From: an uncultured Pelagibacteraceae bacterium
GTDB taxonomy: Bacteria > Pseudomonadota > Alphaproteobacteria > Pelagibacterales > Pelagibacteraceae
Assembly (NCBI GenBank): GCA_902589725.1
Contig: CACITU010000007.1
Location: 1-64,000, forward strand
DNA: 64,000 nucleotides
Direction of reading: 5' to 3'
Shown here: piece after piece, positions 12,697 through 42,614 of the stretch
Position numbering within the stretch: the first letter of the stretch is position 1
How the letters are laid out: every line of letters begins with the position of its first letter
Program-made: the position numbers and the translations under genes
Notes under the pieces: model-generated
What the model saw: only the letters and a program-made list of their open reading frames with translations
Told to the model about the DNA's origin: nothing
Databases searched by the model: none

Positions 12697-12699
12697 TTG

Positions 12700-18840: not shown

Positions 18841-18940
18841 AGTGTTAACCTCTAAGTGTCTAGATTATAACTTTTTTGGTAATTTGTTTAGACGATTTTT
18901 TTCTATATACATGTTGAGTTTTTTGACTTATTTAAAGAAA

Positions 18941-19852: not shown

Positions 19853-19911
19853 ATGTTTCATTGAAATTTAAAAAAATTTCATTTAAATAAACTTAATTTT
19901 AAAGGAGTAAA

Positions 19912-21198
19912 ATGGCTATAACATATCTAAAAAGATCACCTAAAACTTCATCTACAGATGATACTAAGACCCGAGAAATAGTAGAAAATATTTTAAAAGA
20001 TATTGAGAAAACTAAAGAAGAAGGATGTAAAGAACTGTCAAAAAAATTTGATAAATATGAAGGTGATGTAGTTATTTCTAAAGAAAAAATTGAAGAAATT
20101 AAAAAAAACTTAGATCAAAAGACTAAAGACGATATTCAATTTTCCCATGAGAGAGTTAGGAAATTTGCTGAAGCACAATTAAAAAATTACGGTCAAGATT
20201 TTGAAGTTGAGTTATCTGATGGTCTATTTGCAGGTCAAAAATTAATTCCAGTAAATACTGCTGGTTGCTATGTCCCAGCTGGTAGGTATGCTCACATAGC
20301 ATCTGCTGTAATGAGCGTGACAACAGCCAAAGTAGCAGGAGTTAAAAATATAATAGTCTGTAGCTCTCCTAAACCTGGTGTTGGTGTGCATCCATCAATT
20401 GTTTATACAGCAGATTTATGCGGTGCTGATGTAATTATGAATTTAGGTGGTGTTCAAGCTATTGCAGCAATGACAAATGGATTATTTGGAAATGCGCCAG
20501 CAGATATTTTAGTTGGACCAGGAAATCAATTTGTTGCTGAAGCAAAAAGACTTTTGTTTGGTAAAGTTGGTATCGATTTATTTGCAGGACCAACAGAAAT
20601 TGCAGTAATCGCAGATGAGACAGCTGATCCTGAAATGGTTGCCTACGATCTTGTTGGACAAGCTGAGCATGGTTACAATTCTCCTGCTTGGTTATTTACA
20701 AAAAGTAAAAAAATTGCAGATTATGTGTTGCAAAGAGTCCCTGAACTTATTGAAGATTTACCAGATTTACCTAAAGAAAATTCTGGCGCAGCATGGAGAG
20801 ATTATGGTGAAGTAATATTATGCGATACTGATGAAGAAATAGCAAAAGTAAGTGATGATTATGCCCCAGAGCATTTAGAGGTGCAGACAAAAAATTTACA
20901 ATGGTATCATGATAGACTTAAAAATTATGGTTCTCTATTTATAGGAGAAGAAACAACAGTAGCTTATGGTGATAAGTGTTCAGGTACAAATCATATTTTA
21001 CCAACAAAAGGTGCTGGAAAATATACAGGTGGTTTGTTTGTAGGAAAATTTATCAAAACACTTAGCTTTCAAAGAATGAGTAAAGAAGCAACGAAAGAAG
21101 TAGGAGCAGCTTGTGCTAGAATTTCTAGATACGAAGGTATGGAAGCACACGCTCGAACAGGTGATGTTAGATTAAGAAAATATGGCTTTTCAAACTAG
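19912..21198 (+). CDS. hpsN: HisD-family dehydrogenase, probable sulfopropanediol 3-dehydrogenase (HpsN-like)
   Basis: A 428-residue histidinol-dehydrogenase-fold protein retaining the zinc and catalytic residues (Gln/His in DLVGQAEHGYNSP, Glu-His in DYAPEHLEVQ, Asp in AYGDKCSGTNHILPT, C-terminal His in GMEAHARTGDVRLRKY). The start MAITYLKRSP, the ELSDGLFAGQKLIPV block and the EGMEAHART end agree with my recollection of the HpsN branch rather than true HisD, and no other histidine gene is near. HpsN oxidises (R)-2,3-dihydroxypropane-1-sulfonate to (R)-sulfolactate with 2 NAD. It has an AAGGAG ribosome-binding site and shares its CTAG stop with the opposite hydrolase gene. Family certain, HpsN function probable. 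Confidence 0.75.
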   Translation: MAITYLKRSPKTSSTDDTKTREIVENILKDIEKTKEEGCKELSKKFDKYEGDVVISKEKIEEIKKNLDQKTKDDIQFSHERVRKFAEAQLKNYGQDFEVELSDGLFAGQKLIPVNTAGCYVPAGRYAHIASAVMSVTTAKVAGVKNIIVCSSPKPGVGVHPSIVYTADLCGADVIMNLGGVQAIAAMTNGLFGNAPADILVGPGNQFVAEAKRLLFGKVGIDLFAGPTEIAVIADETADPEMVAYDLVGQAEHGYNSPAWLFTKSKKIADYVLQRVPELIEDLPDLPKENSGAAWRDYGEVILCDTDEEIAKVSDDYAPEHLEVQTKNLQWYHDRLKNYGSLFIGEETTVAYGDKCSGTNHILPTKGAGKYTGGLFVGKFIKTLSFQRMSKEATKEVGAACARISRYEGMEAHARTGDVRLRKYGFSN

Positions 21199-23650: not shown

Positions 23651-24899
23651 CTACCCTCTTCCCTAAAAGTCTAAAATAAAAAAACATAAACATTAAAAGT
23701 AATACAACTATTACTATTGAAACAGCTGAACCCATTCCAATATCTGATATTGCAAAACCTTGCTGATAAACATTTATTGGTAAAGTCCTTGTTCCTGATG
23801 CGCCCCCAGTTAATAAAAAGACATCCTCAAATTTATTAAAATTCCATATAAATCTAATCATGAATAAAATCGAAATTACCGCAGTAATTTGTGGAAGCGT
23901 AATTTTAAAAAATTTTTGAAATGGACTTGCGCCATCGACATCAGCAGCTTCATATAATTCCTTTGGTATTGCTTGAAGTCTTGCAAGAATAAATAAAAAG
24001 GCTAAAGGGAAATACCTCCAAATTTCAAACATTATAACTGTAGTTAGAGCAAGTCTTAATTTAAAATCAAAACCAAAAATACTAATTTCAATATATTTTT
24101 GTCCAAGTAAATTTATTGGAGTTTCAATGATTTGATAATTTAATAATAAACTATTAAGCGTACCACTATTTGGGTCTAATAACAGTTCCCATGTGTAAGC
24201 TAAAGCCACAACTGGAGCAACATATGGAAAAAGCAAAACACTTCTCATAAATGTTCTTCCATAAAACTTTTGATTAACCATTTGAGCAGTTAGAATACCA
24301 AATACTATAGAGCCAACAGTTCCAAAAAATGTGTAATAAAAAGTTGTTAGTAGTAAATCTACAAATTCATTCTCAAATAAAACTTTTTTAAAGTTTTTTA
24401 AGGTGAAGTTGTTATTTAGTAATATGTTATCAGATTTTCCATCTAGTTTCGGTTTAACTGATTTTAGGGTTTTTTTATCAATTTTTGATCCATCGTTTGT
24501 TGAAAAAATTACTTGAAAATTTTCCTTATATTTGGCTGGCCAATTGCCAAATTCACATTTTAGTGAGGACTTTTTATATTCACATCTTGGGTCTAAATTT
24601 TCAATTTCAAAATTTTTTGGAAAGTTATCTTTAAATGAAACTTCTCTGATTTCTTGAAGTAGTGAGCTATTTCTTAATTTATATAATATTTTTATTTTTG
24701 AGGGCTCATCAGAGATAGATTTTACAATCTTTTTAGCTCTTGGTTCAGGAATTCTTATATCTTTTAACTCGACTTCTTTAAAACTGATCCAAACATTTGC
24801 AAAAATTGGAAAGAGAATTATTGCAAAAACTAAAAGGACTGCAGGTAGAGTTAATATGTAAGCAGTTTTTTTTTCTGTATTTGCTAAAGTATCATTCAT
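23640..24899 (-). CDS. Carbohydrate ABC transporter permease (MalF-like) with periplasmic loop
   Basis: A 419-residue MalF-type permease. The first membrane segment (ILTLPAVLLVFAIILFPIFA) is followed by about 140 hydrophilic residues (to about residue 180), a long periplasmic loop reminiscent of the MalF P2 loop in position. The core has the EAA loop LYEAADVDGASPFQKFFKI and ends FFYFRLLGKRVDEN. Its ATG lies directly at the T-tract of the terminator that follows the binding-protein gene. The substrate is unknown; the hydrolase downstream suggests a glycoside. Confidence 0.9.
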   Translation of the reverse strand: MNDTLANTEKKTAYILTLPAVLLVFAIILFPIFANVWISFKEVELKDIRIPEPRAKKIVKSISDEPSKIKILYKLRNSSLLQEIREVSFKDNFPKNFEIENLDPRCEYKKSSLKCEFGNWPAKYKENFQVIFSTNDGSKIDKKTLKSVKPKLDGKSDNILLNNNFTLKNFKKVLFENEFVDLLLTTFYYTFFGTVGSIVFGILTAQMVNQKFYGRTFMRSVLLFPYVAPVVALAYTWELLLDPNSGTLNSLLLNYQIIETPINLLGQKYIEISIFGFDFKLRLALTTVIMFEIWRYFPLAFLFILARLQAIPKELYEAADVDGASPFQKFFKITLPQITAVISILFMIRFIWNFNKFEDVFLLTGGASGTRTLPINVYQQGFAISDIGMGSAVSIVIVVLLLMFMFFYFRLLGKRVDEN

Positions 24900-24934
24900 A
24901 AAAAAAGCGGATAATTCATATTATCCGCTTTTTT
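24900..24934 (-). terminator. Intrinsic terminator/attenuator after the sugar-binding protein gene
   Basis: A perfect 14-bp stem (arms 24901-24914 and 24921-24934, core AAGCGGATAA) with a 6-base loop, followed on the minus strand by a T-tract that runs straight into the ATG of the permease at 24899. It separates the binding protein from its permeases in one operon and should reduce their expression. Confidence 0.9.
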
Positions 24935-24946
24935 AAAAAATTAAAA

Positions 24947-26278
24947 TTATTTGAATTTAGCTAATGATTTGTTAATCATATCAACAGCCTCATCAACATC
25001 GATTTGATCGTCAATATAAAGTCTAGTAACTCTATTTATAAATTGAGAATTTATGACTTTTGATGCTCTTGATAGTTCACCTTCTTTAACACCCCATCTA
25101 TTTGCAGTATCTAAACCAGCTACTATATTATTTATAACATCTGGGTCATAAAGATCTGACAAAGGAGCTTTTCTATCAACTCCAACAGGTAGTTTACTCC
25201 AAGCTTTTGTGAAAGCTTCAGGGTCACTTGAATTTCCTCTTCTTACAGGAAATTTACCCTCTGGAGCAATGGATAGTGTGCTTGCATAACCTTCATCCAT
25301 TGAGTACATGACAAATTGTTTAGCTTCATCAGTATCAGCATCAGCTGTTATACCGAAGTATCTAATATCTGCCCATGCAGCACCTTTTTTGTTACTAGGC
25401 CCACTAAAATTAGTAATAAAACCAGTTTTAGATGCTAGTTCAGGTGATGTTGGGTCACTGTTAATTGTTGGTGGAGCTGAGTCTCTTAAACCAGCAAGTT
25501 CATCCATGATGAATGGAGACCAAATGATCATTGGAGTTTTACCTGCAAAGTAAAGTGCTCTAGATTGTTTCCAGTACAATTCGCCTGGAGGACTTGCTTT
25601 AGCAATTACTTTATAAAACTCTAATGCCTCTTTTAGTTTCTTACCTTGTTTCTTGATACCACCCTTTTTAACAATATTAACACCGTTTGCCAAAAGAACA
25701 TGCTCTAAAACCTGACTCATGAAATTTTCATCAGTTTTTGTTGCAGCAACAAAACCAAACATACCATTTTGTTTTGATAGTTTCTCAACCGCAGCAACAA
25801 TGTTTGCATAACTTGTTGGTGGTGCTAAATCCGCATTTTCAAAAAGGTCTTTTCTATAAACAACCATTTGTGTCCATCCATCAACTGGAACAGCTGCAAT
25901 TTTTGAACCCTTTTTAGCCATATTAAGTGCACCTGGTGCAAATGTGTCTTTACCTAGGTCTTTAACAACGCTGTTATTAGCATCTACATCTAAAATTCCT
26001 GCTTCAGCCCATGGTAATACATATTGTAGAGTATGGTAGATCACATCTGGTAAATCACCTGCTGCAGCAGCTGCTGTAGCCCTAGTTCCCAAATCTTTTT
26101 CTTCTACCGGGATCACCTCTACTTTAATTCCTGTCTTAGCTTCAAAAGCTTTTGCCATTTCCTCTTGCTTAGCCATTCGGGCAGGCTGAACTTCTGTTGT
26201 CCAAAACTTTATGTCTGCGTAAACAATACTTGAAATAAAAAAAGATATTACGCAAAACAATCTTATTATGTTTTTCAT
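24947..26278 (-). CDS. Carbohydrate ABC transporter substrate-binding protein (family 1)
   Basis: A 443-residue extracellular solute-binding protein family 1 member with a signal peptide (MKNIIRLFCVISFFISSIVYA). The mature N-terminus DIKFWTTEVQPARMAKQEEM and the blocks AAAAAGDLPDVIYHT and PVDGWTQMVVYRKDLFE are typical of sugar-binding proteins. The start has a strong ribosome-binding site (AGGAGGGG). Palindromes upstream suggest its own regulated promoter, separate from the ATPase gene. The ligand is unknown; a glucoside such as glucosylglycerate is possible given the downstream hydrolase. Confidence 0.9.
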   Translation of the reverse strand: MKNIIRLFCVISFFISSIVYADIKFWTTEVQPARMAKQEEMAKAFEAKTGIKVEVIPVEEKDLGTRATAAAAAGDLPDVIYHTLQYVLPWAEAGILDVDANNSVVKDLGKDTFAPGALNMAKKGSKIAAVPVDGWTQMVVYRKDLFENADLAPPTSYANIVAAVEKLSKQNGMFGFVAATKTDENFMSQVLEHVLLANGVNIVKKGGIKKQGKKLKEALEFYKVIAKASPPGELYWKQSRALYFAGKTPMIIWSPFIMDELAGLRDSAPPTINSDPTSPELASKTGFITNFSGPSNKKGAAWADIRYFGITADADTDEAKQFVMYSMDEGYASTLSIAPEGKFPVRRGNSSDPEAFTKAWSKLPVGVDRKAPLSDLYDPDVINNIVAGLDTANRWGVKEGELSRASKVINSQFINRVTRLYIDDQIDVDEAVDMINKSLAKFK

Positions 26279-26421: not shown

Positions 26422-27477
26422 TTAAGATTTTAGTCTTCTTCCATTTTCATCAAAAATAAAAATGTCATTTAGATCAAATCCAATTTTATTTCCAATTTCT
26501 ATGTTGCTAGGGATTTTGGCACTTAATTGATGTTCCTCTTTTTTCATATAAGCAATTTTTTCGTTACCTAAGTTTTCAATTAATTCAATCTCAGGATTAA
26601 AAATAAATTGATTTTCTTGATTTGCTTTTAAGTGTTCAGGTCTAATGCCTACAAAGTGTTTTGATTTATTGAGTTTTAAGTTATCAAACACAATATCATT
26701 ACCTAATAACTTAATTTTATTATCAGAAATTATGTTTTTTTCATCAACTTCCAGAATATTCATTTTGGGTGTACCAATAAATTGAGCCACAAAAATATTT
26801 GCAGGGTCATTATAAATTTCTTCAGGAGTCCCAACCTGTTCAATGTTGCCTTGATTTAAAATAACTATTCTATCTGCTAAAGTCATAGCTTCAACCTGAT
26901 CGTGAGTAACATAAATCATATTGGTTTTTATTTGATTATGTAATTTTGATATTTCGACCCTCATTTCAGCCCTTAAAGCAGCATCCAAATTTGATAACGG
27001 TTCATCGAATAAGAATATTTTTGGATTTCTTGTGATAGCTCTTCCTATTGCAACCCTTTGTCTTTGACCTCCAGACAATTGTTTTGGTTTCCTCTCAAGA
27101 AGTTCTTCAATTTTTAGAATTTTTGCAGCTTGCATGACTTTTGTTTCGATTTCCTCCTTTGGTCTTTTTTCAATTTTTAAGCCGAAAGACATGTTTTCAT
27201 AAACATTCATGTGAGGATAAAGAGCGTAAGATTGAAAAACCATTGCAGTTTGACGCTTTGAAGGATGAAGTTCATTAATTTTTTGTTCGTTAATAAAAAT
27301 TTCACCTTCATCAATTTTTTCTAATCCAGCAATCATTCTTAACAATGTTGATTTTCCACATCCAGATGGTCCAACAAGAACAAGAAACTCATCCTCTTTT
27401 CCTAAAAGATTAAAATCAGTAATGATTTTGTTTGATCCAAATGATTTATGTACACCAGTAAATTTTATATTTGCCAT
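26422..27477 (-). CDS. Carbohydrate ABC transporter ATP-binding protein (UgpC/MalK/MsmX-like)
   Basis: A 351-residue sugar-importer ATPase: Walker A GPSGCGKSTLL, signature LSGGQRQRVAIGRAI, Walker B IFLFDEPLSNLDA, H-loop YVTHDQVEAMTLADR, then an OB-like C-terminal domain (GIRPEHLKANQ) that docks in MalK-type transporters. It starts 1 base after the stop of the SnoaL-like gene, and is separated from the binding-protein gene by a palindrome-rich gap. Since the transporter at 31738-34922 has no ATPase of its own, this one may energise both systems. Confidence 0.93.
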   Translation of the reverse strand: MANIKFTGVHKSFGSNKIITDFNLLGKEDEFLVLVGPSGCGKSTLLRMIAGLEKIDEGEIFINEQKINELHPSKRQTAMVFQSYALYPHMNVYENMSFGLKIEKRPKEEIETKVMQAAKILKIEELLERKPKQLSGGQRQRVAIGRAITRNPKIFLFDEPLSNLDAALRAEMRVEISKLHNQIKTNMIYVTHDQVEAMTLADRIVILNQGNIEQVGTPEEIYNDPANIFVAQFIGTPKMNILEVDEKNIISDNKIKLLGNDIVFDNLKLNKSKHFVGIRPEHLKANQENQFIFNPEIELIENLGNEKIAYMKKEEHQLSAKIPSNIEIGNKIGFDLNDIFIFDENGRRLKS

Positions 27478-27478
27478 T

Positions 27479-28564
27479 TTATTTTTTTATATTTTCTAAA
27501 ATATCTAGTCCAATTTGTTTTAATATGTGAACTATATCAATTGGAACCCAATTTTCACGAATTTTTCCTTCATCATGATGGTAAAAATCCATAACCCTCA
27601 TAGTTACTTTTTGATTTTTAGCTTTATAACCTAGCCAATCTTCAGTTCCATAAGTAGCATGAATACTATTCCAGCCAGCAGTTAAGGAAAATTTTCCGTC
27701 TCCTAATTCACAATAGTGACCAAGTTTCCAATAATTTCTTTCTTTAAATGTTTTTCTAAAAGGTAATTGATGATCATCAACAAACCCTTCTAAAGTTCTC
27801 GCTGTACCAATTCCACTTGGTCCATACCATACCATTTTATCATGCCAATAATCATTTTGAGGGTGATTGATTAATCTTTCCTTAAGATCTTTATCAGAAG
27901 AAACTTCTAATTCAGGTTTTATATTTAAACTTCTCTGCATAATAAGTGATTGTTCTAAACTAGCTTTAGAAACTTGCATATCTTTTTCAAAAAAATTTAC
28001 ACCATCTGTATTAATTGGGCTCAACCAACTACCTTCCGAGCCTCTCGAGGTCTTTAATGGATTTAATCCAATTTGAATTAGGAGATCTATTAAATCAATT
28101 AAAATATAGCTCTCAATAATTTTATTATTTTTAAGTTCATGAATTTCACAACATTTTAGATTTACCATTTTCATATTTGGTTTGATGCCTAACCAAGTTT
28201 TTTTGAAAACACCTGATAAAGTTGAGATTGTTCCAACTTGAATTTTGTCCCTAAAAGCTCCACTTATTACTAGCTGTTCTCTTCTTTCAATGTCAGGAAA
28301 TGAATTAAATAAAGGCTTCCAGAACCTTTCCTTAAATTCATCTATTCCAATAAATTCATTTAATGGATAAAAACAATTAATATTAACATTGTTAGAAAAC
28401 GCATTTTGAAGATTTTGATCAAGATTAGAAATACCTTCTTTTACTATCGTACCTAAATATTTTCTAACAACCTGTTTATAATTATAATTTTCCTCAGGAG
28501 TTATAACTATTTTTTCAACGTTCCCTTGACCCTTAAGACCTGTATCAAATTGTTCTATTTGCAT
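27479..28564 (-). CDS. SnoaL-like (NTF2-fold) polyketide-cyclase-family protein, two domains
   Basis: About 361 residues from the ATG at 28564 (a GTG at 28594 would add ten residues). Two SnoaL/NTF2-like units are visible, around residues 30-170 (GIDEFKERFWKPLFNSFPDI, IHELKNNKIIESYILID) and 230-355 (ARTLEGFVDDHQLPFRKTF, HDEGKIRENWVPIDIVHIL). Such proteins bind small hydrophobic ligands or act as cyclases and isomerases. A second two-domain homologue lies at 29559 on the other strand. It is directly upstream of the ABC ATPase. No specific function can be assigned. Confidence 0.75.
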   Translation of the reverse strand: MQIEQFDTGLKGQGNVEKIVITPEENYNYKQVVRKYLGTIVKEGISNLDQNLQNAFSNNVNINCFYPLNEFIGIDEFKERFWKPLFNSFPDIERREQLVISGAFRDKIQVGTISTLSGVFKKTWLGIKPNMKMVNLKCCEIHELKNNKIIESYILIDLIDLLIQIGLNPLKTSRGSEGSWLSPINTDGVNFFEKDMQVSKASLEQSLIMQRSLNIKPELEVSSDKDLKERLINHPQNDYWHDKMVWYGPSGIGTARTLEGFVDDHQLPFRKTFKERNYWKLGHYCELGDGKFSLTAGWNSIHATYGTEDWLGYKAKNQKVTMRVMDFYHHDEGKIRENWVPIDIVHILKQIGLDILENIKK

Positions 28565-28614
28565 AAATTTTTTGTTATATAAATTTAGTATCACAAAATA
28601 TAGTTTAAAAAAAT

Positions 28615-29559
28615 ATGAATAATCGATTAGCTAAATTTGAGGACCTTGTTCCAAGTACTTTACCATTTGTTGAAGGAAAGCTTGAAGGACATAAAGAAAG
28701 AAAAAATTATTCTATTGTAGGTCCTGGGGTTGCCGAAGACAGTAAACAATTTGTTAAAATAGCTATGCCTCATAGCTTTAATCTAGGTGCCGTATCAGCA
28801 TTGCCAAAAAATGGTTCGGGCCTGCACAGTCATACTACTGCTGAAGTTTTTATTATCTATTCTGGTAAGTGGAGGTTCTATTGGGGCGCTGAAGGTAAAG
28901 ATGAAACAATTCTAAGTGCAGGAGATATAATTTCTATGCCAACAAACATGTTTAGAGGATTTGAGAATGCAGGGAATAAAGAAGGATTAATTTTTGTTGT
29001 ATTAGGTGGAGATGATCCTGGAATAATAACTTGGGTTCCAAGTGTCTTAGAAAAAGCTAAACAGACAGGGATGGCTCTTTTAAATGATAATTCTCTAATT
29101 GATTTATCTATAAATGATATTCCTAAAAACAAATCTCTCCTAGAACCAATTTCCTCTGAAGAAATTAAAAAATTTGATAATTATAAATTAAATGAACTTG
29201 AAAATTATATTTGTAAATTTTCTGACAGAATTAATTATGAAAATAAAATAAGTGAGAATTTTAGTTTAATTCAAGTATTGGGTGATACTTTTCAAGATAA
29301 GAAGTTTAATCCTGTTATAAATCATAATACAGGCTTTAACTTATCAATTTTAAAAGCAAAAAAAGGTAAATTAGAAAATTTGAAATTTTCAAAGCCCGCA
29401 ATAATGTTTTCACAGAAAGGAAGTTGGCAAATAAAAATTGATGATTTTTTAATGAAACTCAATCCTAGAGATACAATTTCTATTCCAATTAATTCACAAG
29501 TAAATATTGAAATTAATGATCATGACGAAAGTTTATTAAACTGTGTAACTCAAATCTAA
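28615..29559 (+). CDS. Bicupin-like protein
   Basis: A 314-residue protein with two cupin-like halves. The first is well formed, with metal-ligand candidates in SGLHSHTTAEVFIIYSGKW and the second cupin motif AGDIISMPTNMFRGFEN. The second (about residues 225-310) is degenerate, keeping the glycine-rich turns but few histidines. Cupins of this kind are dioxygenases, isomerases or sugar-binding proteins. Its last base is the first base of the next gene (TAATG), so it is co-translated with the SnoaL-like protein. It diverges from the other SnoaL-like gene by 50 bases. Confidence 0.7.
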   Translation: MNNRLAKFEDLVPSTLPFVEGKLEGHKERKNYSIVGPGVAEDSKQFVKIAMPHSFNLGAVSALPKNGSGLHSHTTAEVFIIYSGKWRFYWGAEGKDETILSAGDIISMPTNMFRGFENAGNKEGLIFVVLGGDDPGIITWVPSVLEKAKQTGMALLNDNSLIDLSINDIPKNKSLLEPISSEEIKKFDNYKLNELENYICKFSDRINYENKISENFSLIQVLGDTFQDKKFNPVINHNTGFNLSILKAKKGKLENLKFSKPAIMFSQKGSWQIKIDDFLMKLNPRDTISIPINSQVNIEINDHDESLLNCVTQI

Positions 29560-30521
29560 TGAAAGGATTTGATAATAAATATAAAAGTTTTCCTGATTTT
29601 ATACTGAAGATTACAAAACAAATTTGGGAAGGTAAAGACGTTAACTCTATTGCAAATTTTTATACTAATGATATTCCTGTAAGATCTCCTTTTGGTGTTA
29701 CTTATGGAAATAAACCAGTTATTGATGCAACGTTTAAAACATTAAAAGAATTCCCGAACAGACAATTATTGGGAGAAGATGTTATTTGGAATGGAAAAGA
29801 TGGTGAGGGCTATCATTCCTCTCACAGAATTTTAAGTAAAGGCACTCATCTTGGAGAAGGTTATTACGGTAAACCAACAGGAAAAAATATTTATTATAGA
29901 GTTATTGCAGATTGTGCATGTAAAGATAATCAGGTTTACGATGAGTGGATTGTAAGAGATCAAGGTGCTATGGTTAGACAGATAGGTTTTACTCCTAAAG
30001 AATTTGCTCAAAAAATTATTGAAAATGAAGGTGGACTAGAAAAAGCACAAAAATTATTTAATTCTAAATCTGATATGAAGTCAGAGTATAAACCAACTCC
30101 TGCCCCAAAAAACTCTGTTGGTATAAAATATTCAAATATACTAAATAAAATTTTCAACAATGATTATGATTTTTCTGACTATGCCAGAGCAGCGAGTATT
30201 TATTGGCCAGGTAATAGAATTGGACATGGTAGAGAAGATATTGTGAAATTTTGGAAATTAATAAAGGATGCTTTAGGTAATATTAAATTTTCTGTTGAAC
30301 ATATTGGTTATTTAGAGGAACCAAATAAGAATCATAAAGCATCAATTAGATGGTTTTTAGAAGCTGATCATTTAAATGATACTTCTGAGTTTGGTGAAGC
30401 AACAAATAAAAATATTTTTATAATGGGTATTAATCATGCGGAAATAAGTGATGGAAATGTTATAAGGGAGTGGGTTCTATTTGATGAAGTTGCGATCTGG
30501 AAACAAATTTTAATGAAATAA
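29559..30521 (+). CDS. SnoaL-like (NTF2-fold) protein, two domains
   Basis: A 320-residue protein with two NTF2/SnoaL-like domains: residues ~10-140 (WEGKDVNSIANFYTNDIPV, YDEWIVRDQGAMVRQIGF) and ~185-318 (GHGREDIVKFWKLIKDAL, ISDGNVIREWVLFDEVAIW). It overlaps the bicupin stop by one base and ends 3 bases before the MetE-like gene, so the three form an operon. Related in layout to the SnoaL-like protein at 27479-28564. Substrate unknown. Confidence 0.72.
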   Translation: MKGFDNKYKSFPDFILKITKQIWEGKDVNSIANFYTNDIPVRSPFGVTYGNKPVIDATFKTLKEFPNRQLLGEDVIWNGKDGEGYHSSHRILSKGTHLGEGYYGKPTGKNIYYRVIADCACKDNQVYDEWIVRDQGAMVRQIGFTPKEFAQKIIENEGGLEKAQKLFNSKSDMKSEYKPTPAPKNSVGIKYSNILNKIFNNDYDFSDYARAASIYWPGNRIGHGREDIVKFWKLIKDALGNIKFSVEHIGYLEEPNKNHKASIRWFLEADHLNDTSEFGEATNKNIFIMGINHAEISDGNVIREWVLFDEVAIWKQILMK

Positions 30522-30524
30522 TTT

Positions 30525-31652
30525 ATGGTCAAAATTAAAACAACACATGTTGGGAGTCTACCAAGATCAAATGAATTATCAGATCTTTTATTTAAGAAAG
30601 ATCAAAAGCAAAAAATAAATTTAGATGTATTTGATCAAATAGTTAACAGAGACGTGAATGAGGTTGTTAAAAAACAAATCGATGTAGGAATAGACTTTAT
30701 AAGCGATGGTGAAATGTCTAAAATAAGTTATGCTACTTATGTAAAGGATAGAATTGATGGTTTTTCTGGTGAAAGTGAAAGAAAAGCACCAAAAGATTTA
30801 GATGATTTTCCATCTTTTAAAGAAAGAATAGCTAGAACAGGTGGAACACCTACTTATACAAGACCTTGTTGTACAAATGAATTAAAAGTAAAAGACAAGT
30901 CTTCTCTAACAAAAGATATTAATAATTTTAAAGAAGCTTTAAATAAAAATAATCACAAGAATGGATTCATGAATGCTGCATCACCAGGTGTCATATCAGC
31001 TTTCTTACCTAATAAATTTTATAAAAATGATGATGAATATTTAGAAAACTTGGCAAATATAATGAAAGAAGAATATGAAGAAATTACATCGAGTGGAATA
31101 AAACTACAGTTGGATTGTCCTGATTTAGCATTAGCTAGACACATGACATTTAAAGATTTTTCAGAAGATGAATTTTTATTAAGAGCTGAAAAACAAATTG
31201 AATGTCTGAACAGTGCGATTAGTAATATAGATAGCTCAAATATTAGACTTCATATTTGTTGGGGAAATTACGAAGGTCCACATTTACATGATATTGCACT
31301 AGAAAAAATAATGCCAATTGCATTAAAAGCAAATGTACAAACTTATCTAATTGAGTCATCTAACCCTAGACATTCTCATGAATGGCAAACTTTTGAAAAT
31401 TTAAAAATACCAAAGGATAAAATTATTGCTCCAGGTGTAATAGATTCTACCACAAATTTTGTTGAGCATCCTGAAGTTGTGAAAAATAGAATTTTAACTT
31501 ATGCAAAAGTGATTGATATTGAGCAACTATTAGCTGGTACTGATTGTGGATTTAGTACCTTTGCTGGTTTTGGAAATGTAGACGAAAACATAGTTTATAA
31601 AAAACTCGAAGCGCTCGTGAGGGGCTCAGAGCTTGCGTCAAAAGTGATTTAA
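30525..31652 (+). CDS. MetE C-terminal-like (cobalamin-independent methionine synthase-type) protein
   Basis: A 375-residue protein of the UROD/MetE-like barrel family. It starts TTHVGSLPRSNEL, typical of stand-alone MetE C-domain homologues, and keeps zinc-ligand candidates: His and Cys in RLHICWGNYEG and Cys in GTDCGFSTFAG. The family transfers alkyl groups to a thiol; known members include methionine synthases and epoxyalkane:coenzyme M transferase. It lacks the N-terminal half of full MetE (about 750 residues). Together with cupin and SnoaL-like partners and a following transporter it probably serves a catabolic pathway, not methionine synthesis; this is inference. Confidence 0.8.
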   Translation: MVKIKTTHVGSLPRSNELSDLLFKKDQKQKINLDVFDQIVNRDVNEVVKKQIDVGIDFISDGEMSKISYATYVKDRIDGFSGESERKAPKDLDDFPSFKERIARTGGTPTYTRPCCTNELKVKDKSSLTKDINNFKEALNKNNHKNGFMNAASPGVISAFLPNKFYKNDDEYLENLANIMKEEYEEITSSGIKLQLDCPDLALARHMTFKDFSEDEFLLRAEKQIECLNSAISNIDSSNIRLHICWGNYEGPHLHDIALEKIMPIALKANVQTYLIESSNPRHSHEWQTFENLKIPKDKIIAPGVIDSTTNFVEHPEVVKNRILTYAKVIDIEQLLAGTDCGFSTFAGFGNVDENIVYKKLEALVRGSELASKVI

Positions 31653-31737: not shown

Positions 31738-32958
31738 ATGAGAAAAATACTAGTTACTTTATTGTTTCTACTATTTGGAACTTCTGCTTTTGCAGATTGT
31801 AACATTAAAAGTGGTTCAATAAATATTTTGGCTAATGATTTTCCTGCATTAAGAACTTTCGTTGAAACTTCTAAACAATGTAAAGGAAGTGCTGATTTTA
31901 AAGTGACTCACTCATCTGAGCATAATAAAATCGCAGTGCCAGCATTAACTGCAAATCCTTCTGAGTTTTCTGCTAGGATTGCTGCTAACAGTTCAATTGT
32001 TCCTTTAATGAACCAAGATTTAATTAGACCATTAGATGATCTTGTTAAAAAATATGGTAAAGGAATTCAGGACTCACAATTAATCACAATTGATGGAAAA
32101 GTAATGGCTGTAGCTTTTATGGCTAATACTCAACACTTATACTATAGAGAAGATGTTTTGAAGGATCTTGGTATAGCAGTTCCAAAAACATACGAGGAAG
32201 TGGTTGCTGCATCTGAAAAAATTAGAGCTTCAGGTAAAATGCAATATCCTTATGCTGCTGCATATAAAGCAGGTTGGAATTTAGCAGAAGAGTTTGTAAA
32301 CATGTTTATTGGTCACGGTGGTGAATTCTTTAAAGCTGGTGGTGCACAACCTAATATTAATAACGCAAAAGGTGTTGCTACTTTAAACATGCTTAAAAAA
32401 TTATCTGAACTAAGTAATCCTGATTACTTAACTCACGATAGTGAAGCTATTAAAGTTGAATGGGAGTCAGGTAATGTTGCATTAATGACATTATGGGCTT
32501 CAAGATCAGGTACTCTTTTAGATGATGAAGGAGATCCAAACATTACTAAAGCAACAAAATTAACTGGACCAGCTACAGTGGGTGGTGGAAATATTCCAGC
32601 AGCTACATTATGGTGGGATGGTTTCACGCTAGCTAAAAATAGATCAGATGCAGACGCCGAAGCAACATTTAGAGCTTTAGCGCATGCAGCATCAAATAAG
32701 AAAATGGTAGCTGACGCTGCTGATCAAGCTGTTTGGTTAGTTGAAGGATTTGTACCAGGACCAAAATCTATCGGTGTAATTGAAGCTGTAAAAATGGGAG
32801 CAAAACCATATCCAATGTTACCACAAATGGGTTTAATGCATGGTGCATTAGGAAGTGAAATTGTTGAATTTTTACAAGGAAAAGAGTCTGCAGAACAAGC
32901 ATTGAAAGATGTTGAGGCTGCTTACATTAGTAAAGCTAAAGAACAAGGCTTTCTATAA
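31738..32958 (+). CDS. ABC transporter substrate-binding protein (family 1)
   Basis: A 406-residue periplasmic binding protein with signal peptide MRKILVTLLFLLFGTSAFA. Family-1 features include AVAFMANTQHLYYREDVLKDLG, WESGNVALMTLWASRSG and the LWWDGFTLAKN block. Cys residues near the mature N-terminus and at CKGSADF could pair. It follows the MetE-like gene by 85 bases and is followed by a 10-bp hairpin and two permeases. Ligand unknown; it need not be a sugar. Confidence 0.88.
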   Translation: MRKILVTLLFLLFGTSAFADCNIKSGSINILANDFPALRTFVETSKQCKGSADFKVTHSSEHNKIAVPALTANPSEFSARIAANSSIVPLMNQDLIRPLDDLVKKYGKGIQDSQLITIDGKVMAVAFMANTQHLYYREDVLKDLGIAVPKTYEEVVAASEKIRASGKMQYPYAAAYKAGWNLAEEFVNMFIGHGGEFFKAGGAQPNINNAKGVATLNMLKKLSELSNPDYLTHDSEAIKVEWESGNVALMTLWASRSGTLLDDEGDPNITKATKLTGPATVGGGNIPAATLWWDGFTLAKNRSDADAEATFRALAHAASNKKMVADAADQAVWLVEGFVPGPKSIGVIEAVKMGAKPYPMLPQMGLMHGALGSEIVEFLQGKESAEQALKDVEAAYISKAKEQGFL

Positions 32959-32972
32959 AATCTAAAAACTTC

Positions 32973-32997
32973 TAAGTGGGGATTTATTCCCCACTTA
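32973..32997 (+). other. RNA hairpin between binding-protein and permease genes
   Basis: A perfect 10-bp stem, TAAGTGGGGA pairing with TCCCCACTTA around a 5-base loop, 15 bases after the binding-protein stop. No T-tract follows. It could stabilise the upstream mRNA 3' end or pause transcription; it occupies the same place as the true terminators of the other transporter operons. Confidence 0.7.
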
Positions 32998-33009
32998 ATC
33001 AAAATTTAA

Positions 33010-34038
33010 ATGCCTAATAAAACATTTTTTTGGTTTTTTTTACCAACAGGTCTAGCAATGATCCTGTTTATTGGGCTACCAATCATATCAACTGGTATCC
33101 AATCTTTTTATGCTCAACACGATCAAGTAGTTAAAGAAGTTAAAAAGTGTGACCCTTTTGGTTGTACTGTTTCAATTGTAGTTGATAACGAGTTAACAAC
33201 AAAATTGAGAGAGGACAAGCCACTTGGTAAATTTAATGGGTTTGGAACCTATGTAGATAGAAATCATCTTGCTATTGACGAAATTAAAAAATTTTGGAAT
33301 GAAACTGAGAACTTTGGTGCTTTCGTAGATCAAGTAACCAATCTTCCATTTTACAAGGCGTTAATATTTACCCTAACCTATTGTCTATTTGTTACACCGA
33401 ATGTTCTTTTATTAGGATTTATTATTGCTTTAAGTTTAAATGCTGTTGCAAGAAAAATTAGGGGTCCATTAATTTTTGGTACGATATTGCCTATGATTGT
33501 TACGCCTCTAGTAGGGTCTCTTGTATTATTTTGGATGATAGATTCTCAAGGAATTATTGGAGCTAATATTCAAAATTTAATGAATGATCCGTATTTATCA
33601 CTTAAATCTTCTAAAACATTAACCTGGATCACTATTATTATATATGGAATTTGGCATCATTCACCTTTTGCATTTGTAGTATTTTATGCGGCTCTTCAAA
33701 CGGTCCCTCAAGAACCAGTAGAAGCTGCAATTATTGATGGCGCATCAAGGTTTCAAAGAATTAAACATATAGTGTTACCGCATATTTATCCTGTAGTTAC
33801 TTTTGTAGCTTTGATTTCGTTAATGGATAACTTCAGGGTTTTTGAGCCAATAATTGGCTTTAGCGCTGAGGGAAGTGCACAATCATTATCATGGTTAATC
33901 TATGATAATTTAGTAAATGAGGAAGTAATATTATTTGGATCTGCTGCAGCAACCTCTATGATGACGATTGTTGGTATAGCAATTTTATTAGCTCCAGTTT
34001 TAATAAGAACATGGAAAGAATTTAAGACAGCGAGATAA
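33010..34038 (+). CDS. ABC transporter permease (MalF/UgpA-like)
   Basis: A 342-residue binding-protein-dependent permease. Membrane segment 1 (FFWFFLPTGLAMILFIGLPI) is followed by a periplasmic loop of about 80 residues containing a Cys pair (KKCDPFGCTV), then the transport core with the EAA loop EPVEAAIIDGASRFQRIKHI. It pairs with the permease that starts 3 bases downstream. No ATPase gene is adjacent. Confidence 0.9.
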   Translation: MPNKTFFWFFLPTGLAMILFIGLPIISTGIQSFYAQHDQVVKEVKKCDPFGCTVSIVVDNELTTKLREDKPLGKFNGFGTYVDRNHLAIDEIKKFWNETENFGAFVDQVTNLPFYKALIFTLTYCLFVTPNVLLLGFIIALSLNAVARKIRGPLIFGTILPMIVTPLVGSLVLFWMIDSQGIIGANIQNLMNDPYLSLKSSKTLTWITIIIYGIWHHSPFAFVVFYAALQTVPQEPVEAAIIDGASRFQRIKHIVLPHIYPVVTFVALISLMDNFRVFEPIIGFSAEGSAQSLSWLIYDNLVNEEVILFGSAAATSMMTIVGIAILLAPVLIRTWKEFKTAR

Positions 34039-34040
34039 TT

Positions 34041-34922
34041 ATGGATTATGGTCTAGATAAAAAATCAACAAGTTTAAAAACTTTTAACACAATCTTTATT
34101 ATCGTTTGGCTTTTAATTGCTTGTTTTCCTTTCATTTGGACTTTTTGGGGATCATTTAAAGTTAGAGCTGATTTTTTTTCAAGATCAGATTGGTGGTATG
34201 CTATTTCTGCATTCAATACTTTAATTGAAACCGGTGGAAAATTTACAACAGATGCATATACCCAAGCCTGGACTGAAGGAGAGTTTTGGAAAGCATCCAA
34301 AAATACAATAATTGTAACTGTATTTGTTGTAAGCATTTCATTATTTTTAGGAACACTTGGTGCATATGCACTTTCAAGATCAACTGAAAGATATGCGTTT
34401 TGGATATTAATTGCAGCACTAATATTTAGAGCAATGCCTCACATCACTCTAGTATCAGGATATTTATTTCCATTTTTTCAATTACAAATATGGGGAATTC
34501 TCCCTACAACCATTGTTGTGCTAGTTGCAATTAATCAACCATTTACTTTATGGTTACTATATTCATTTTTTAAAACAGTCCCTAAAGAACTTGATGAAAG
34601 TGCTTTAATAGATGGGTGTTCATACTTTCAAGCTTTTAGACATATTATCATGCCAGTGATGTGGCCAGGAGTAATTACTGCAGGATTATTTAGTTTAATG
34701 CTTGCTTACAATGATTTTACGGTAACTGCATTACTTTTAAACCAAGAAAATCATACCATGGTTCCAAAAATTCAGAGTTATTTAGGAACAAATCAACATG
34801 AAGGTAATTTAATGTGGGCAGTTTCTGCAGTAGTTTCAGCAACAGCTCCTCTATTTATGTTGGTGATGTTTTTTCAAAGACAGGTTATTAGTGGTTTAAC
34901 TGCTGGAGCTGTAAAAGGTTGA
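34041..34922 (+). CDS. ABC transporter permease (MalG/UgpE-like)
   Basis: A 293-residue MalG-type permease with about six membrane segments, EAA loop LDESALIDGCSYFQAFRHI, and the usual C-terminus QRQVISGLTAGAVKG. It is the second channel subunit of the importer starting at 31738. Its TGA overlaps the TTG start of the HAD-like gene by 4 bases. The expected ATPase is not in this operon. Confidence 0.92.
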   Translation: MDYGLDKKSTSLKTFNTIFIIVWLLIACFPFIWTFWGSFKVRADFFSRSDWWYAISAFNTLIETGGKFTTDAYTQAWTEGEFWKASKNTIIVTVFVVSISLFLGTLGAYALSRSTERYAFWILIAALIFRAMPHITLVSGYLFPFFQLQIWGILPTTIVVLVAINQPFTLWLLYSFFKTVPKELDESALIDGCSYFQAFRHIIMPVMWPGVITAGLFSLMLAYNDFTVTALLLNQENHTMVPKIQSYLGTNQHEGNLMWAVSAVVSATAPLFMLVMFFQRQVISGLTAGAVKG

Positions 34923-35581
34923 AATATTACAAAGCTTTATTTTTTGGTTCTATTGGATCAATTGTCGAAACTTCAGAGATACAAAGAAAGTCATTTAACA
35001 AAGCATTTAAAAAATATGGGCTTGATTGGAATTGGACTAAGCGAGAGTATTTAAGTTTACTAAATAAATCTGGGGGAAAAGATAGAATATCTAGATACGC
35101 AAAGAAGAATAAAGAAATTGTAAACTCTACATATTTAAGAAATTTAAAAACTAAAATATTCAATAATTACCTTAAAAAAAACCAGCTAAAATTAAGACCA
35201 GGTGTTAAAAATTTAATTTTATTCTGTAAGAAAGAAAAAATAAAATTAGCTTTTGTCTCATCAACATCTACGAATAATATAAATGCAATATTATATTCAT
35301 TGAGAAATTCAATAAATAAAGAAGATTTTAGTTTTGTCGGTAATTCAAAACTAGTTAAAAAATTTAAACCACATCCTGCAATATACTTGCTAGCGCTTAA
35401 AAAACTTAAGCTTAAAGCTAATGAATGTTTGGCTATTGAAGATACACAAGAAAGCCTAAATTCAGCTAAGCGAGCTAAAATAAAATGTATAATTTTTCCT
35501 GGAAAATTTCATTCTTCAAGAAAATTTAGTGGGGCTTTAAAAAAAGTTTATAGACTGAATAAAAATATTATTCTGAGATAA
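34919..35581 (+). CDS. HAD-superfamily (CbbY-like) protein lacking the catalytic aspartates
   Basis: A 220-residue protein with the layout of beta-phosphoglucomutase/CbbY-like HADs: motif II FVSSTSTNN, motif III Lys in KKFKPHPAIYL, motif IV ECLAIEDTQESLNSAKRA. Motif I, normally DxDGT(L/V), reads ALFFGSIGSIVET, so the nucleophile Asp is Gly and the general-acid Asp is Ile. It starts at a TTG overlapping the permease stop (TTGA), with AAAAGG upstream. The rest of the fold is intact and the frame unbroken, so it looks like a pseudoenzyme rather than a dead gene. It overlaps the opposite hydrolase gene by 14 bases. Confidence 0.78.
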   Translation: MKYYKALFFGSIGSIVETSEIQRKSFNKAFKKYGLDWNWTKREYLSLLNKSGGKDRISRYAKKNKEIVNSTYLRNLKTKIFNNYLKKNQLKLRPGVKNLILFCKKEKIKLAFVSSTSTNNINAILYSLRNSINKEDFSFVGNSKLVKKFKPHPAIYLLALKKLKLKANECLAIEDTQESLNSAKRAKIKCIIFPGKFHSSRKFSGALKKVYRLNKNIILR

Positions 35582-36323
35582 ATTTTTGTACTAAATTATT
35601 AAATTGATCAGGCTGTTCTAAATGAACATTATGAGCACAATCCTTAAATATTTCTAAACGACTATTCTTAATATTTTTTTTTAATGTATCAACCTGATCA
35701 AAATTGTAAGAAGTATCTTTATCACCCCAGATAATCAAAGTTTCATTCTTTATATTTTTTAAATCTTCTTTACCTCTCCAATTTTTCATTGCTAACAAAG
35801 CATTATCAGCGGCCTCTAAAGAAACACCTTTAACTGCATTTTTGCATAAAAAATAATTTTTATCTTTATCCCCTTTAACAAACCATTTTTTTGGAACTCT
35901 AGAAAATGAAACTTCAGTTCCATCTTTTTTTAATTTTTCTCTTGTTTCATCTATTGTTTCAAATCTACCGGGTATTTCTCCAATTGATCCTGTAGCAAAA
36001 CAAATTAATTTGTTAACTCTATCACCAATTAGTTTTGTAATTTCTTGAACAATCATTCCTCCCATTGAATGTCCAATTAAATTAAATTTATCAATATTTT
36101 TTTGATCTAATAAATCTATTATTTCTATGGCCATTTTATTTATAGAGTCTAAAGATTTAATATTATGACTTTCACCAAACCCTGGAAGAGCTGGAATTAT
36201 TACACGATAATCTTTTGAAAAAAATTCTTTTTGAAAAGTCCACATTTTAGATGAGCCTAAGTAACCATGAACAAAAACAAATGGAAACCCTTTGCCTATA
36301 TCCTCTACATAAATATTTTTCAT
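35568..36323 (-). CDS. Alpha/beta-hydrolase fold protein
   Basis: A 251-residue alpha/beta hydrolase with the full catalytic triad pattern: nucleophile elbow LIGHSMGGMIVQE (Ser), Asp in IIWGDKDTSYN and His in CAHNVHLEQPDQF; the oxyanion-hole HGYLGSSKMW is also present. It is probably an esterase, lactonase or C-C hydrolase. It overlaps lysE upstream by 4 bases and the HAD-like gene downstream by 14. Substrate unknown. Confidence 0.85.
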   Translation of the reverse strand: MKNIYVEDIGKGFPFVFVHGYLGSSKMWTFQKEFFSKDYRVIIPALPGFGESHNIKSLDSINKMAIEIIDLLDQKNIDKFNLIGHSMGGMIVQEITKLIGDRVNKLICFATGSIGEIPGRFETIDETREKLKKDGTEVSFSRVPKKWFVKGDKDKNYFLCKNAVKGVSLEAADNALLAMKNWRGKEDLKNIKNETLIIWGDKDTSYNFDQVDTLKKNIKNSRLEIFKDCAHNVHLEQPDQFNNLVQKFISE

Positions 36324-36925
36324 AATATTTCCTTAATAATAAATAGAATTAACACAGCCATAAAACCAATAATAAAAATATTAATTACTCTCCAAACTAT
36401 TTTACTTTTAGCATACTTTGATAAATAATTAGATAAATACCCCAATATAAAAAAAAATAAAAATGATGCTATAGAAGCACCTACCCCGAATAAAATTTTT
36501 TGGTTTAATAAATAATTTTTTGAAAAATTTCCGAGAAAAAAAACCGTGTCAGAATAAACGTGTGGATTTAAATAGGTAAATCCTAAAGTTTTAAATATGA
36601 TATTTAATTTTGAAATATCATTTTGCTTAGTACTAAAGTAAATATCTAAATAATGAGATTTTATTTTTTTATAAATAAAGTGAAGTAAAAATAAAATTAA
36701 AAATAAATTTAAAATTAGTTCAATTAAAGAATTAAAATATTGATTAAAATAATGGAAAATAAAGATACCGAAAAAAATTAATATCAGATCTGATAAGGAG
36801 CATATTAAACAAACAATAAATACGTGTTGTTTTTTTAAACCTTGTTCTATAACAAAAATATTCTGGGCACCTATAGCTAAAATTAAGCTAATCCCTGTGA
36901 AGAAGCCTAATAATAGGTATTCCAT
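36320..36925 (-). CDS. LysE/ArgO-family amino-acid exporter
   Basis: A 201-residue membrane protein with about six hydrophobic segments and the family start GFFTGISLILAIGAQNIFVIEQGL, where GAQNIFVI is the LysE/ArgO signature. The later YLNPHVYSDTVFFLG block is the second family motif. Such proteins export basic amino acids to prevent toxic accumulation. Overlaps the hydrolase by 4 bases; no LysG-type regulator is adjacent. Confidence 0.88.
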   Translation of the reverse strand: MEYLLLGFFTGISLILAIGAQNIFVIEQGLKKQHVFIVCLICSLSDLILIFFGIFIFHYFNQYFNSLIELILNLFLILFLLHFIYKKIKSHYLDIYFSTKQNDISKLNIIFKTLGFTYLNPHVYSDTVFFLGNFSKNYLLNQKILFGVGASIASFLFFFILGYLSNYLSKYAKSKIVWRVINIFIIGFMAVLILFIIKEIL

Positions 36926-40641: not shown

Positions 40642-40992
40642 ATGGCTGGGATAGAAGTAAAAAGTTTTGATAAAGCAGATGAAGTGAATGATAATTTTAA
40701 TAATGCTAAAATTGAAGCGGTCAAAGTTGGAAATCAAAGATTGATGAAACTTACTTTGCAACCTGGTTGGCAATGGTCAAAAGATATAAAGCCAACAGTT
40801 GGTGGCGACAGCTGTCAAGCTACACATCTTGGTATAATTATCTCGGGTGCTGTTTGTGCAAAACATAATGATGGAACTGAACTAACTTATAAAGCTGGTG
40901 ATGCATACTCAATACAACCAGGTCATGATGGATGGGTTGTTGGAGATAAACCAGCAGTAGTATATGAATTTCATGGGATGTGGGGTGAATAA
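40642..40992 (+). CDS. Small single-domain cupin
   Basis: A 116-residue cupin barrel. The first motif is around GGDSCQATHLGIIISGAVCA with a His, and the second is KAGDAYSIQPGHDGWVVGD with another His; a Glu at the GMWGE end may be outside the site. Small cupins bind metals and act as isomerases, dioxygenases or sensors. AAGGAGG precedes the ATG, and its last base overlaps the next start (TAATG). Confidence 0.75.
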   Translation: MAGIEVKSFDKADEVNDNFNNAKIEAVKVGNQRLMKLTLQPGWQWSKDIKPTVGGDSCQATHLGIIISGAVCAKHNDGTELTYKAGDAYSIQPGHDGWVVGDKPAVVYEFHGMWGE

Positions 40993-41315: not shown

Positions 41316-41330
41316 ATAGAAAGGAATAAT

Positions 41331-42613: not shown

Positions 42614-42614
42614 T

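Follow-up and report, generated by a model that had tools for sequence, protein, structure and literature searches.

The closest described counterparts of the enzyme studied here are the folate-independent core methionine synthases MesA–MesD, stand-alone MetE barrels with an HCEC zinc set and a Ser/Glu/Asp homocysteine set (Price et al. 2021, PMC7857596). SAR11 is described as being without MetE (PMC12478193; PMC12366255), and a SAR11 betaine-homocysteine methyltransferase (BHMT) would form methionine while demethylating a compound taken up from outside (PMC12478193). Core-MetE homologues with a doubtful methionine role have also been discussed for aerobic marine bacteria, e.g., the "Mes-like" PGA1_c27430 of Phaeobacter (PMC12366255, PMC12478193), and the function of such proteins has been called questionable (PMC12478193). 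Here, we analyzed a window of 64,000 nt, i.e., positions 1–64000 of contig 7 from an uncultured Pelagibacteraceae genome (G000; 1.20 Mb assembly, 39 contigs, 85% complete), for which the closest named relatives in a genome-collection scan were single-cell genomes labeled Pelagibacteraceae. At 28615–31652, genes for a bicupin, a two-domain SnoaL-like protein (SnoaL_B), and a MetE-like protein form a tight run within a mobile, probably catabolic cassette. Our preferred explanation, proposed with moderate confidence, is that this cassette imports a methylated sugar- or cyclitol-like compound, transfers the methyl group onto homocysteine, and breaks down the remainder.

The MetE-like protein (375 aa) has a single Pfam match, to PF01717 (residues 5–345), and is devoid of the N-terminal folate domain. 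In an alignment of 96 relatives, the zinc set (H243, C245, E277, C341) and the homocysteine set (S11, E63, D197) were invariant in 96/96 sequences, with residue roles taken from PMC7857596 and positions transferred through an alignment to 1ypx. This suggests that homocysteine is the likely thiol acceptor, and the simplest reading would be a zinc-dependent transfer of the methyl of one particular donor onto homocysteine, with methionine as a by-product of demethylation. PF02574 homocysteine methyltransferases were detected in 25 of the 26 genomes tested, including 10 of the 11 genus carriers, so that the MetE-like protein is probably not needed for methionine and unlikely to be its sole route, in line with the role outside ordinary methionine synthesis that the earlier sequence-only reading of this DNA implied. 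The sole exception was the window's own genome, in which neither a PF02574 protein nor a further PF01717 protein was found at 85% completeness. That reading had named complementation of methionine synthesis as a refutation; however, a methionine-forming demethylase given its donor would complement as well, and such an experiment would thus not separate the two possibilities. Compared to MesA–MesD, the window protein reaches only 35 bits to the MesD structure 3rpd, has importer and catabolic genes as neighbors, and comes from a set of genomes of which 25 of 26 tested encode PF02574 enzymes. It does not reach MesD-level similarity, for which PMC7857596 uses a criterion of 560 bits to ACIAD3523, a different MesD. 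Compared to PGA1_c27430, to which the window protein can be likened by description only, no cassette, transporter, or substrate is named in the accessible text. Unlike the SAR11 BHMT, a member of PF02574, the enzyme here belongs to PF01717, and its donor is probably an O-methyl compound.

Within the run, the SnoaL_B gene overlaps the cupin gene by 1 nt and the MetE-like gene follows 3 nt later (ORF list and Pfam scan; open reading frames (ORFs) were called crudely, and genes may be split or fused in places). Downstream on the same strand lie a solute-binding protein (SBP), two permeases, and a HAD phosphatase, while the opposite strand carries SnoaL_A, the other gene for a two-domain SnoaL protein, and an ATPase gene of the UgpC type (Table 1). 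The arrangement described from the sequence alone, i.e., three coupled genes upstream of a transporter with a divergent SnoaL gene, was thus recovered, with Pfam in agreement (SBP_bac_1 and BPD_transp_1 for the transporter). One refinement concerns SnoaL_A, whose start is probably 28564 and not 28594: the CAT at this position was identical in 9/9 aligned sequences including the window, leaving a divergent intergenic stretch of ~50 nt, and the ten extra residues have a mean predicted local distance difference test (pLDDT) score of 38 in the structural model. All parts of a CUT1-type importer are present according to Pfam and NCBIfam, namely an SBP_bac_1 binding protein, two permeases, and a UgpC/MalK-type ATPase. 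This ATPase probably energizes the 31738–34922 transporter, and it adjoins SnoaL_A also in relatives without a second transporter, e.g., L096, L097, and L101.

To follow the cassette across genomes, we used 197 genomes of the order, among which carriers are kin, so that overlapping occurrences do not count as independent events. Strong matches to MetE and to the SBP were each found in 36 of these genomes, as were matches to SnoaL_B. At least one of the three was detected in 37/197 genomes, and all three in 34 of these 37, including one genome (G056) counted for SnoaL_B through a 58-residue fragment only. G058, G074, and G179 make up the remaining three; in each of them, one of the genes found was partial, starting ≤6 bases from a contig start in G074 and G179. 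Chance neighborhood was rejected based on this co-occurrence and on the presence of the same set in other classes. The insertion site was empty in 4/4 cassette-free genomes compared (G003, G005, G026, and G015), in which the window's genes run in the order pta-hpsN, lysE-like, VOC (undetected in G015), cysE, and cysK, with hpsN and lysE separated by a few bases to 1.1 kb. In 2/2 carriers compared (G020 and G078), the cassette lies between hpsN and lysE, and in both the window and G078 the same gap also holds another transporter along with an enzyme resembling mannosylglycerate hydrolase. SBP identity was ≥94% in 34 of the 36 carriers and 90% in the other two, while the cupin was more variable, with ~58–60% identity over its full length in distant loci such as L100 and L107, and 42–45% in the most distant cassettes, where the C-terminal part was compared. 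Overall, the genes co-occur and move together as one set with its own importer, and this arrangement is kept in the genus and across classes, in line with the unit put forward from sequence alone.

HpsN was considered as a member of the genus cassette and rejected in favor of a resident flank, being found in 71 cassette-free genus genomes and in 33/37 carriers. HpsN-like dehydrogenases were detected in 113 of the 197 order genomes, and the window's HpsN scores 533 bits to 8v35 vs. 235 bits for the best histidinol dehydrogenase. Nevertheless, the cassette may share the use of this resident enzyme: at L115 (4487–5773) and L136 (4497–5783), an HpsN-type enzyme with 70–71% identity to the window's HpsN replaces the cluster-type HisD.

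Relatives of the gene set occur well beyond the order, including in SAR116, Rhodobacteraceae, and Halieaceae. In a class-level scan, MetE matches at E up to 1e-30 were found in 72/385 genomes. We sampled 100 near-relative loci, combining 20 from the best class-scan matches with the best 80 of at least 590 genome-collection matches, built cluster profiles from these same 100 loci, and collapsed the loci at 90% MetE identity to 58, of which 47 span ≥15 kb. Among these 47, profiles matched a cupin in 41, SnoaL in 40, the HisD family in 36, short-chain dehydrogenase/reductase (SDR) in 33, LacI in 29, and permeases in 27, with the caveat that, for large families such as SDR, LacI, hydrolase, permease, and HAD, a profile may also pick up unrelated members. 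The 36 HisD matches include the resident hpsN in five Pelagibacteraceae-labeled loci (L096, L097, L100, L101, L110), and that of L136 is likewise an HpsN-type enzyme. An aldolase of the RraA or HpcH/HpaI type was detected in 20 loci (RraA in 11, HpcH in 10, both in one) and neither in 27. RraA is typical of Rhodobacteraceae, SAR116, and some single-cell alphaproteobacteria, and HpcH of gammaproteobacteria as well as the alphaproteobacterial loci L088, L152, and L156; the locus matching both is from Chloroflexi (L166). RraA and HpcH/HpaI have unrelated folds, and both families include metal-dependent pyruvate aldolases, from which we infer that an aldol-cleavage step is common to the two kinds of cluster.

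Five annotated full or near-full clusters were found on plasmids of Ruegeria, Marinovum, and Octadecabacter. The fullest, in Ruegeria conchae, comprises an amidohydrolase and a SnoaL gene divergent from an ATPase, an SBP, and two permeases, followed by SnoaL, SnoaL, HisD, SnoaL, SDR, LacI, SnoaL_B, cupin, MetE, an alpha/beta hydrolase, and RraA. The Marinovum cluster is similar but without an annotated SDR, and that of Ruegeria sp. SCSIO 43209 without RraA. In Pseudohalioglobus (L142), SDR, HisD, LacI, hydrolase, MetE, HpcH/HpaI, amidohydrolase, cupin, and SnoaL genes are accompanied by a sodium:solute symporter, which substitutes for the ABC (ATP-binding cassette) importer, while a TonB-dependent receptor is included in the cluster of Marinicaulis (L152). 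Several of these loci show additional genes. In Ruegeria sp. AD91A, a SAM-dependent methyltransferase gene lies between cupin and MetE (L169, 13388–13990), with none annotated at this place in the remaining four clusters on plasmids. In eight to twelve single-cell alphaproteobacterial loci (e.g., L118, 941–4510), sulfate-assimilation genes are divergent from the cluster HisD, namely an inositol-phosphatase family (CysQ-like) gene, a phosphoadenylylsulfate (PAPS) reductase gene, and a GTPase/adenylylsulfate (APS) kinase gene. The cluster of Marinovum algicola adjoins a locus annotated as dimethylsulfoniopropionate (DMSP) demethylation (L171, 14531–21921).

More distant MetE relatives (36–44% identity), from haloarchaea, Dietzia, Rhodococcus, and sphingomonads, were found in other gene settings. 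On a plasmid of Halobellus limi, a MetE-like gene with 41% identity comes immediately after five SnoaL genes annotated as "ester cyclase" (L173, 2747–9140), indicating that the SnoaL–MetE link exists in an archaeon too, whereas no SnoaL-type gene is annotated near the MetE-like gene of Haloprofundus or Halopiger. On plasmids of Dietzia and Rhodococcus (L172, L177), the MetE-like gene is accompanied by iron/2-oxoglutarate oxygenase, phytanoyl-CoA dioxygenase family, and HD-domain genes, a set reminiscent of oxidative phosphonate breakdown. On sphingomonad plasmids (L174, L180), a MetE-like gene and a one-domain NTF2 gene are located near an aminomethyltransferase or GcvT-type gene, with MTHFR and protocatechuate dioxygenase genes additionally present at L174. 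The Novosphingobium and Sphingobium relatives (42–44% identity, with an NTF2 gene) lie near genes that we take to be for methoxyaromatic breakdown.

The proteins around the MetE-like enzyme belong to recognizable families. The AlphaFold2 (AF2) model of SnoaL_A (pLDDT 90.8) superimposes its first domain on the SnoaL-like structure 3kkg (Z 18.4, root-mean-square deviation (rmsd) 3.2, 144 aligned residues); Pfam SnoaL matches two stretches in each SnoaL protein, with Pfam alone covering the second half. The bicupin is modeled as a full bicupin (pLDDT 93.4), in which the N-domain motif H71-x-H73-x3-E77 is invariant and Arg114 stands at the usual fourth His position in 25/25 aligned sequences; in the same alignment, the second (C-terminal) domain is degenerate in sequence. 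Fold searches matched quercetin 2,3-dioxygenase 1y3t (Z 22.1, rmsd 2.3, 224 aligned) and oxalate decarboxylase 6l9i (Z 23.2, rmsd 6.5, 256 aligned). Since the scores of plant vicilins and oxalate decarboxylase are no lower than that of quercetinase, the fold leaves the cupin reaction unsettled. The N-domain of the cupin profile also matched acireductone dioxygenase 4qgl weakly (E 5e-4), and the best PDB match of the profile was a kinetochore cupin.

Among the enzymes of the fuller clusters, the R. conchae HisD is nearer to the sulfopropanediol dehydrogenase HpsN (385 bits) than to histidinol dehydrogenase (237 bits), and the checked zinc and catalytic positions are intact in 69/69 HisD-family proteins of the loci. 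Cluster-type HisDs are 46–54% identical to the window's HpsN, and 39 diagnostic positions, R415E among them, set them apart from the HpsN type. For the R. conchae amidohydrolase, the top match was L-fucono-1,5-lactonase (123 bits, cut-off 400), its SDR matched a general SDR model and then several sugar dehydrogenase models below their cut-offs, and the best models for the cluster hydrolase were PcaD-type, also under cut-off. As in RraA-type 4-carboxy-4-hydroxy-2-oxoadipate aldolases, cluster RraA proteins carry an Arg-Asp pair and an upstream Glu, invariant in 14/14; the match of their profile to 3noj is weak (E 8.6e-5) and scores below 3k4i and 5ir2, the other two of three PDB matches.

Gene content, conservation, co-occurrence, the empty insertion site, invariant active-site residues, and folds are direct observations; taken together, they suggest a route in which each reaction and its place in the order are read from these data. 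The sugar-type importer, along with the LacI regulator of related clusters, suggests a sugar-like ligand, and the MetE-like enzyme a methyl group on the substrate. The ABC transporter would import a methylated carbohydrate- or cyclitol-like compound, and the MetE-like zinc enzyme would bind homocysteine as a thiolate, take the methyl group of the compound, and release methionine. The methyl source would probably be an O-methyl group, i.e., an enol or other activated ether. SnoaL, cupin, PcaD-like hydrolase, and aldolase together suggest keto/enol intermediates and carbon–carbon cleavage: the SnoaL-like proteins could act on such intermediates as isomerases, dehydratases, or enzymes of the retro-aldol type, and the bicupin could catalyze an oxygen-dependent cleavage or isomerization of the remainder. 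In the fuller clusters elsewhere, the HpsN-like dehydrogenase suggests that a CH2OH group would be oxidized to a carboxylate, while a small oxo-acid would be freed by an aldolase, either RraA or HpcH/HpaI. Amine oxidase, dimethylglycine-type, lyase, or thiol-handling genes were not annotated inside any of the five plasmid clusters, which, with the methoxyaromatic-like setting in sphingomonads, indicates that the donor is probably O-methyl rather than N- or S-methyl. The methylated or sulfur compound first suggested for this locus is thus retained by inference for its methylated part, while its sulfur part gained no direct support.

A number of observations weigh against this explanation. The bicupin does not present the 3-His-1-Glu metal site of quercetinase or acireductone-type dioxygenases. 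The genus cassette is without SDR and without cluster-type HisD, and RraA was detected in 1/197 order genomes only (G042, a carrier), so the end of the pathway is unaccounted for in the window's organism; RraA as its last step was accordingly dropped, being not found there. HpcH/HpaI proteins of the six genus carriers tested are only 25–27% identical to cluster HpcH. A PF03328 protein found in 37/37 carriers and at least 45 cassette-free genus genomes was not used as evidence, given this low identity and uncontrolled relatedness. Across the 47 loci, six were without a cupin and seven without SnoaL, and at L079, L080, L084, L086, and L163 a MetE with 50–53% identity is not accompanied by a cluster. 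Sulfur genes lie beside some clusters (the Marinovum DMSP locus and the sulfate-assimilation genes above), and a GMC oxidoreductase, of a family including choline dehydrogenase, is found in L152 and five more loci. Finally, a minor methionine role is considered possible for the Phaeobacter core-MetE homologue (PMC12366255, PMC12478193).

Several alternatives, one of them a specific form of this explanation, were weighed against the same data. Oxidative breakdown of an O-methylated (deoxy)sugar would be one concrete form of it, in which SDR oxidizes C1, the amidohydrolase opens the lactone, SnoaL dehydrates, MetE demethylates an enol ether, and an aldolase yields pyruvate and an aldehyde. The CUT1 transporter, the LacI regulator, the lactonase and sugar dehydrogenase models nearest to the R. 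conchae amidohydrolase and SDR (under cut-offs), and the aldolases of 20/47 loci all fit this route, which we regard as a tentative possibility; however, the five plasmid clusters are without an annotated sugar-acid dehydratase or kinase, the HpsN-like dehydrogenase and dioxygenase-like cupin would be superfluous, and the amidohydrolase was found in only 7/47 loci, with a profile derived from gammaproteobacterial and a few alphaproteobacterial loci. The boldest reading is mycosporine or gadusol breakdown, where a CH2OH group would be oxidized, an enol methyl ether demethylated to homocysteine, and a reductone ring cut by the bicupin before an aldolase ends the route. HpsN-like oxidation of a CH2OH next to a tertiary alcohol, demethylation, and reductone cleavage would lead to 4-carboxy-4-hydroxy-2-oxoadipate, an RraA-type aldolase substrate that RraA or HpcH would split into pyruvate and oxaloacetate. 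The mixture of sugar-like (CUT1, LacI, HisD, SDR) and ring-cleavage-like parts, as well as the PcaD-type hydrolase models and the RraA-3noj, cupin-4qgl, and quercetinase matches, would be consistent with this scheme. We nevertheless consider it unlikely, as the profiles match only weakly, the fold search ranks oxalate decarboxylase level with quercetinase, the fourth cupin ligand is Arg, RraA was found in only 1/197 order genomes, and no mycosporine catabolic cluster was found in the open-access literature searched.

The remaining alternatives concern the methyl transfer itself. The MetE-like protein could be a cobalamin- and folate-independent, MesD-like methionine synthase, with SnoaL and cupin supplying methyls from central metabolism. 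Its core MetE architecture and conserved methionine-synthase residues would allow for this, yet we judge it improbable given the low score to MesD, the PF02574 enzymes in nearly all genomes tested, and the linkage to an importer and, elsewhere, catabolic enzymes; MesX (DUF1852, PF08908) was found in 0/25 genomes, although control genomes gave no match either. Similarly improbable, in our view, is an N- or S-methyl donor, e.g., a betaine-lipid head group or a sulfonium compound, demethylated as by BHMT. Methyl transfers of this kind to homocysteine are chemically easy and known, and the locus annotated as DMSP demethylation beside the Marinovum cluster and the GMC oxidoreductases of six loci point in this direction; BHMT is also discussed in PMC12478193. 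The transporter and regulator are however of the sugar type, and the plasmid clusters offer no annotated amine oxidase, lyase, or thiol gene. Lastly, it appears very improbable that the enzyme alkylates some thiol besides homocysteine, or opens an epoxide with it, as suggested from sequence alone by analogy with epoxyalkane:coenzyme M (CoM) transferase. This transferase belongs to the same barrel superfamily, but the homocysteine-binding Ser, Glu, and Asp are invariant here, and CoM-biosynthesis or alkene-oxidation genes were not seen among the annotated or scanned genes, these families not having been searched for specifically.

Under the preferred explanation of a methyl-salvaging catabolic cassette, every part comes from a known family, while the gene combination and the catabolic core-MetE setting appear new: neither the combination nor a core-MetE in a catabolic cassette of SAR11-type genomes was found in the accessible portions of the open-access literature searched, among them PMC7857596, PMC12478193, PMC12366255, and PMC10734472. 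MetE, SnoaL, cupin, and ABC transporter came up together in one paper of that literature, a Collimonas mineral-weathering study. The cassette brings a MetE-type enzyme with a complete homocysteine site, along with its own importer, into small surface-ocean genomes, as a swappable gene set in some of the ocean's most abundant bacteria. It also provides a catabolic setting for core-MetE that is common to Pelagibacteraceae-labeled genomes, Rhodobacteraceae, SAR116, and Halieaceae. Two questions thereby become testable: which dissolved methylated ligand is taken up by the binding protein, and whether its methyl is salvaged as methionine. If the mycosporine or gadusol route were true, it would be a new way of removing O-methyl groups without cobalamin and would supply the sink that is missing for sunscreen compounds in the sea.

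Table 1 Features of the cassette and its flanks in the 64,000-nt window.
Feature	Position	Strand	Basis
HpsN-like sulfopropanediol dehydrogenase, left flank of insertion site	19912..21198	+	533 bits to 8v35
ABC transporter ATPase, UgpC-like	26422..27477	-	NCBIfam UgpC 461 bits, cut-off 432
SnoaL_A, two-domain SnoaL/NTF2-like	27479..28564	-	Pfam SnoaL 69 bits; AF2 model; 3kkg fold match
Divergent intergenic stretch, ~50 nt	28565..28614	.	Revised SnoaL_A start
Bicupin	28615..29559	+	Cupin_2; alignment of 25; AF2 model
SnoaL_B, two-domain SnoaL/NTF2-like	29559..30521	+	Pfam SnoaL 57.5 bits; alignment of 24
MetE-like zinc methyltransferase, proposed homocysteine-dependent demethylase	30525..31652	+	PF01717 (Meth_synt_2) 62 bits, cut-off 21
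Extracellular solute-binding protein, sugar (CUT1) type	31738..32958	+	PF01547 (SBP_bac_1)
ABC permease 1	33010..34038	+	BPD_transp_1; UgpA-like below cut-off
ABC permease 2	34041..34922	+	BPD_transp_1
HAD-family phosphatase, overlaps permease 2	34919..35581	+	HAD_2; present in many related cassettes
Alpha/beta hydrolase, cassette edge in close relatives	35568..36323	-	Abhydrolase_1; within cassettes of G020 and G078
LysE-like gene, right flank of insertion site	36320..36925	-	Name from translation; site comparison

Riboswitch control of the cassette was considered and rejected, as the window has no Rfam match at gathering score. Other loci in the window include 17989–21198, where a BASS-type transporter (named from its translation), a phosphate acetyltransferase (PF01515), and the close HpsN homologue probably form a locus for sulfopropanediol (DHPS) use. 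The adjacent 21195–26278 region, with a second sugar-type ABC transporter (SBP at 24947–26278) beside an MGH1-like glycoside hydrolase (276 bits), is a probable cassette for taking up mannosylglycerate or glucosylglycerate and occurs in some relatives only. Further along, a single cupin, a short protein, a one-domain SnoaL-like protein, and a DsbA/2-hydroxychromene-2-carboxylate (HCCA) isomerase-like protein, all named from translations, are encoded in a row at 40642–42242. They are followed at 42281–42950 by two neighboring small EmrE-like membrane proteins, the second of which matches Multi_Drug_Res (59.5 bits). At 11209–13854, an aldehyde dehydrogenase precedes an epoxide hydrolase with its N-terminal domain.

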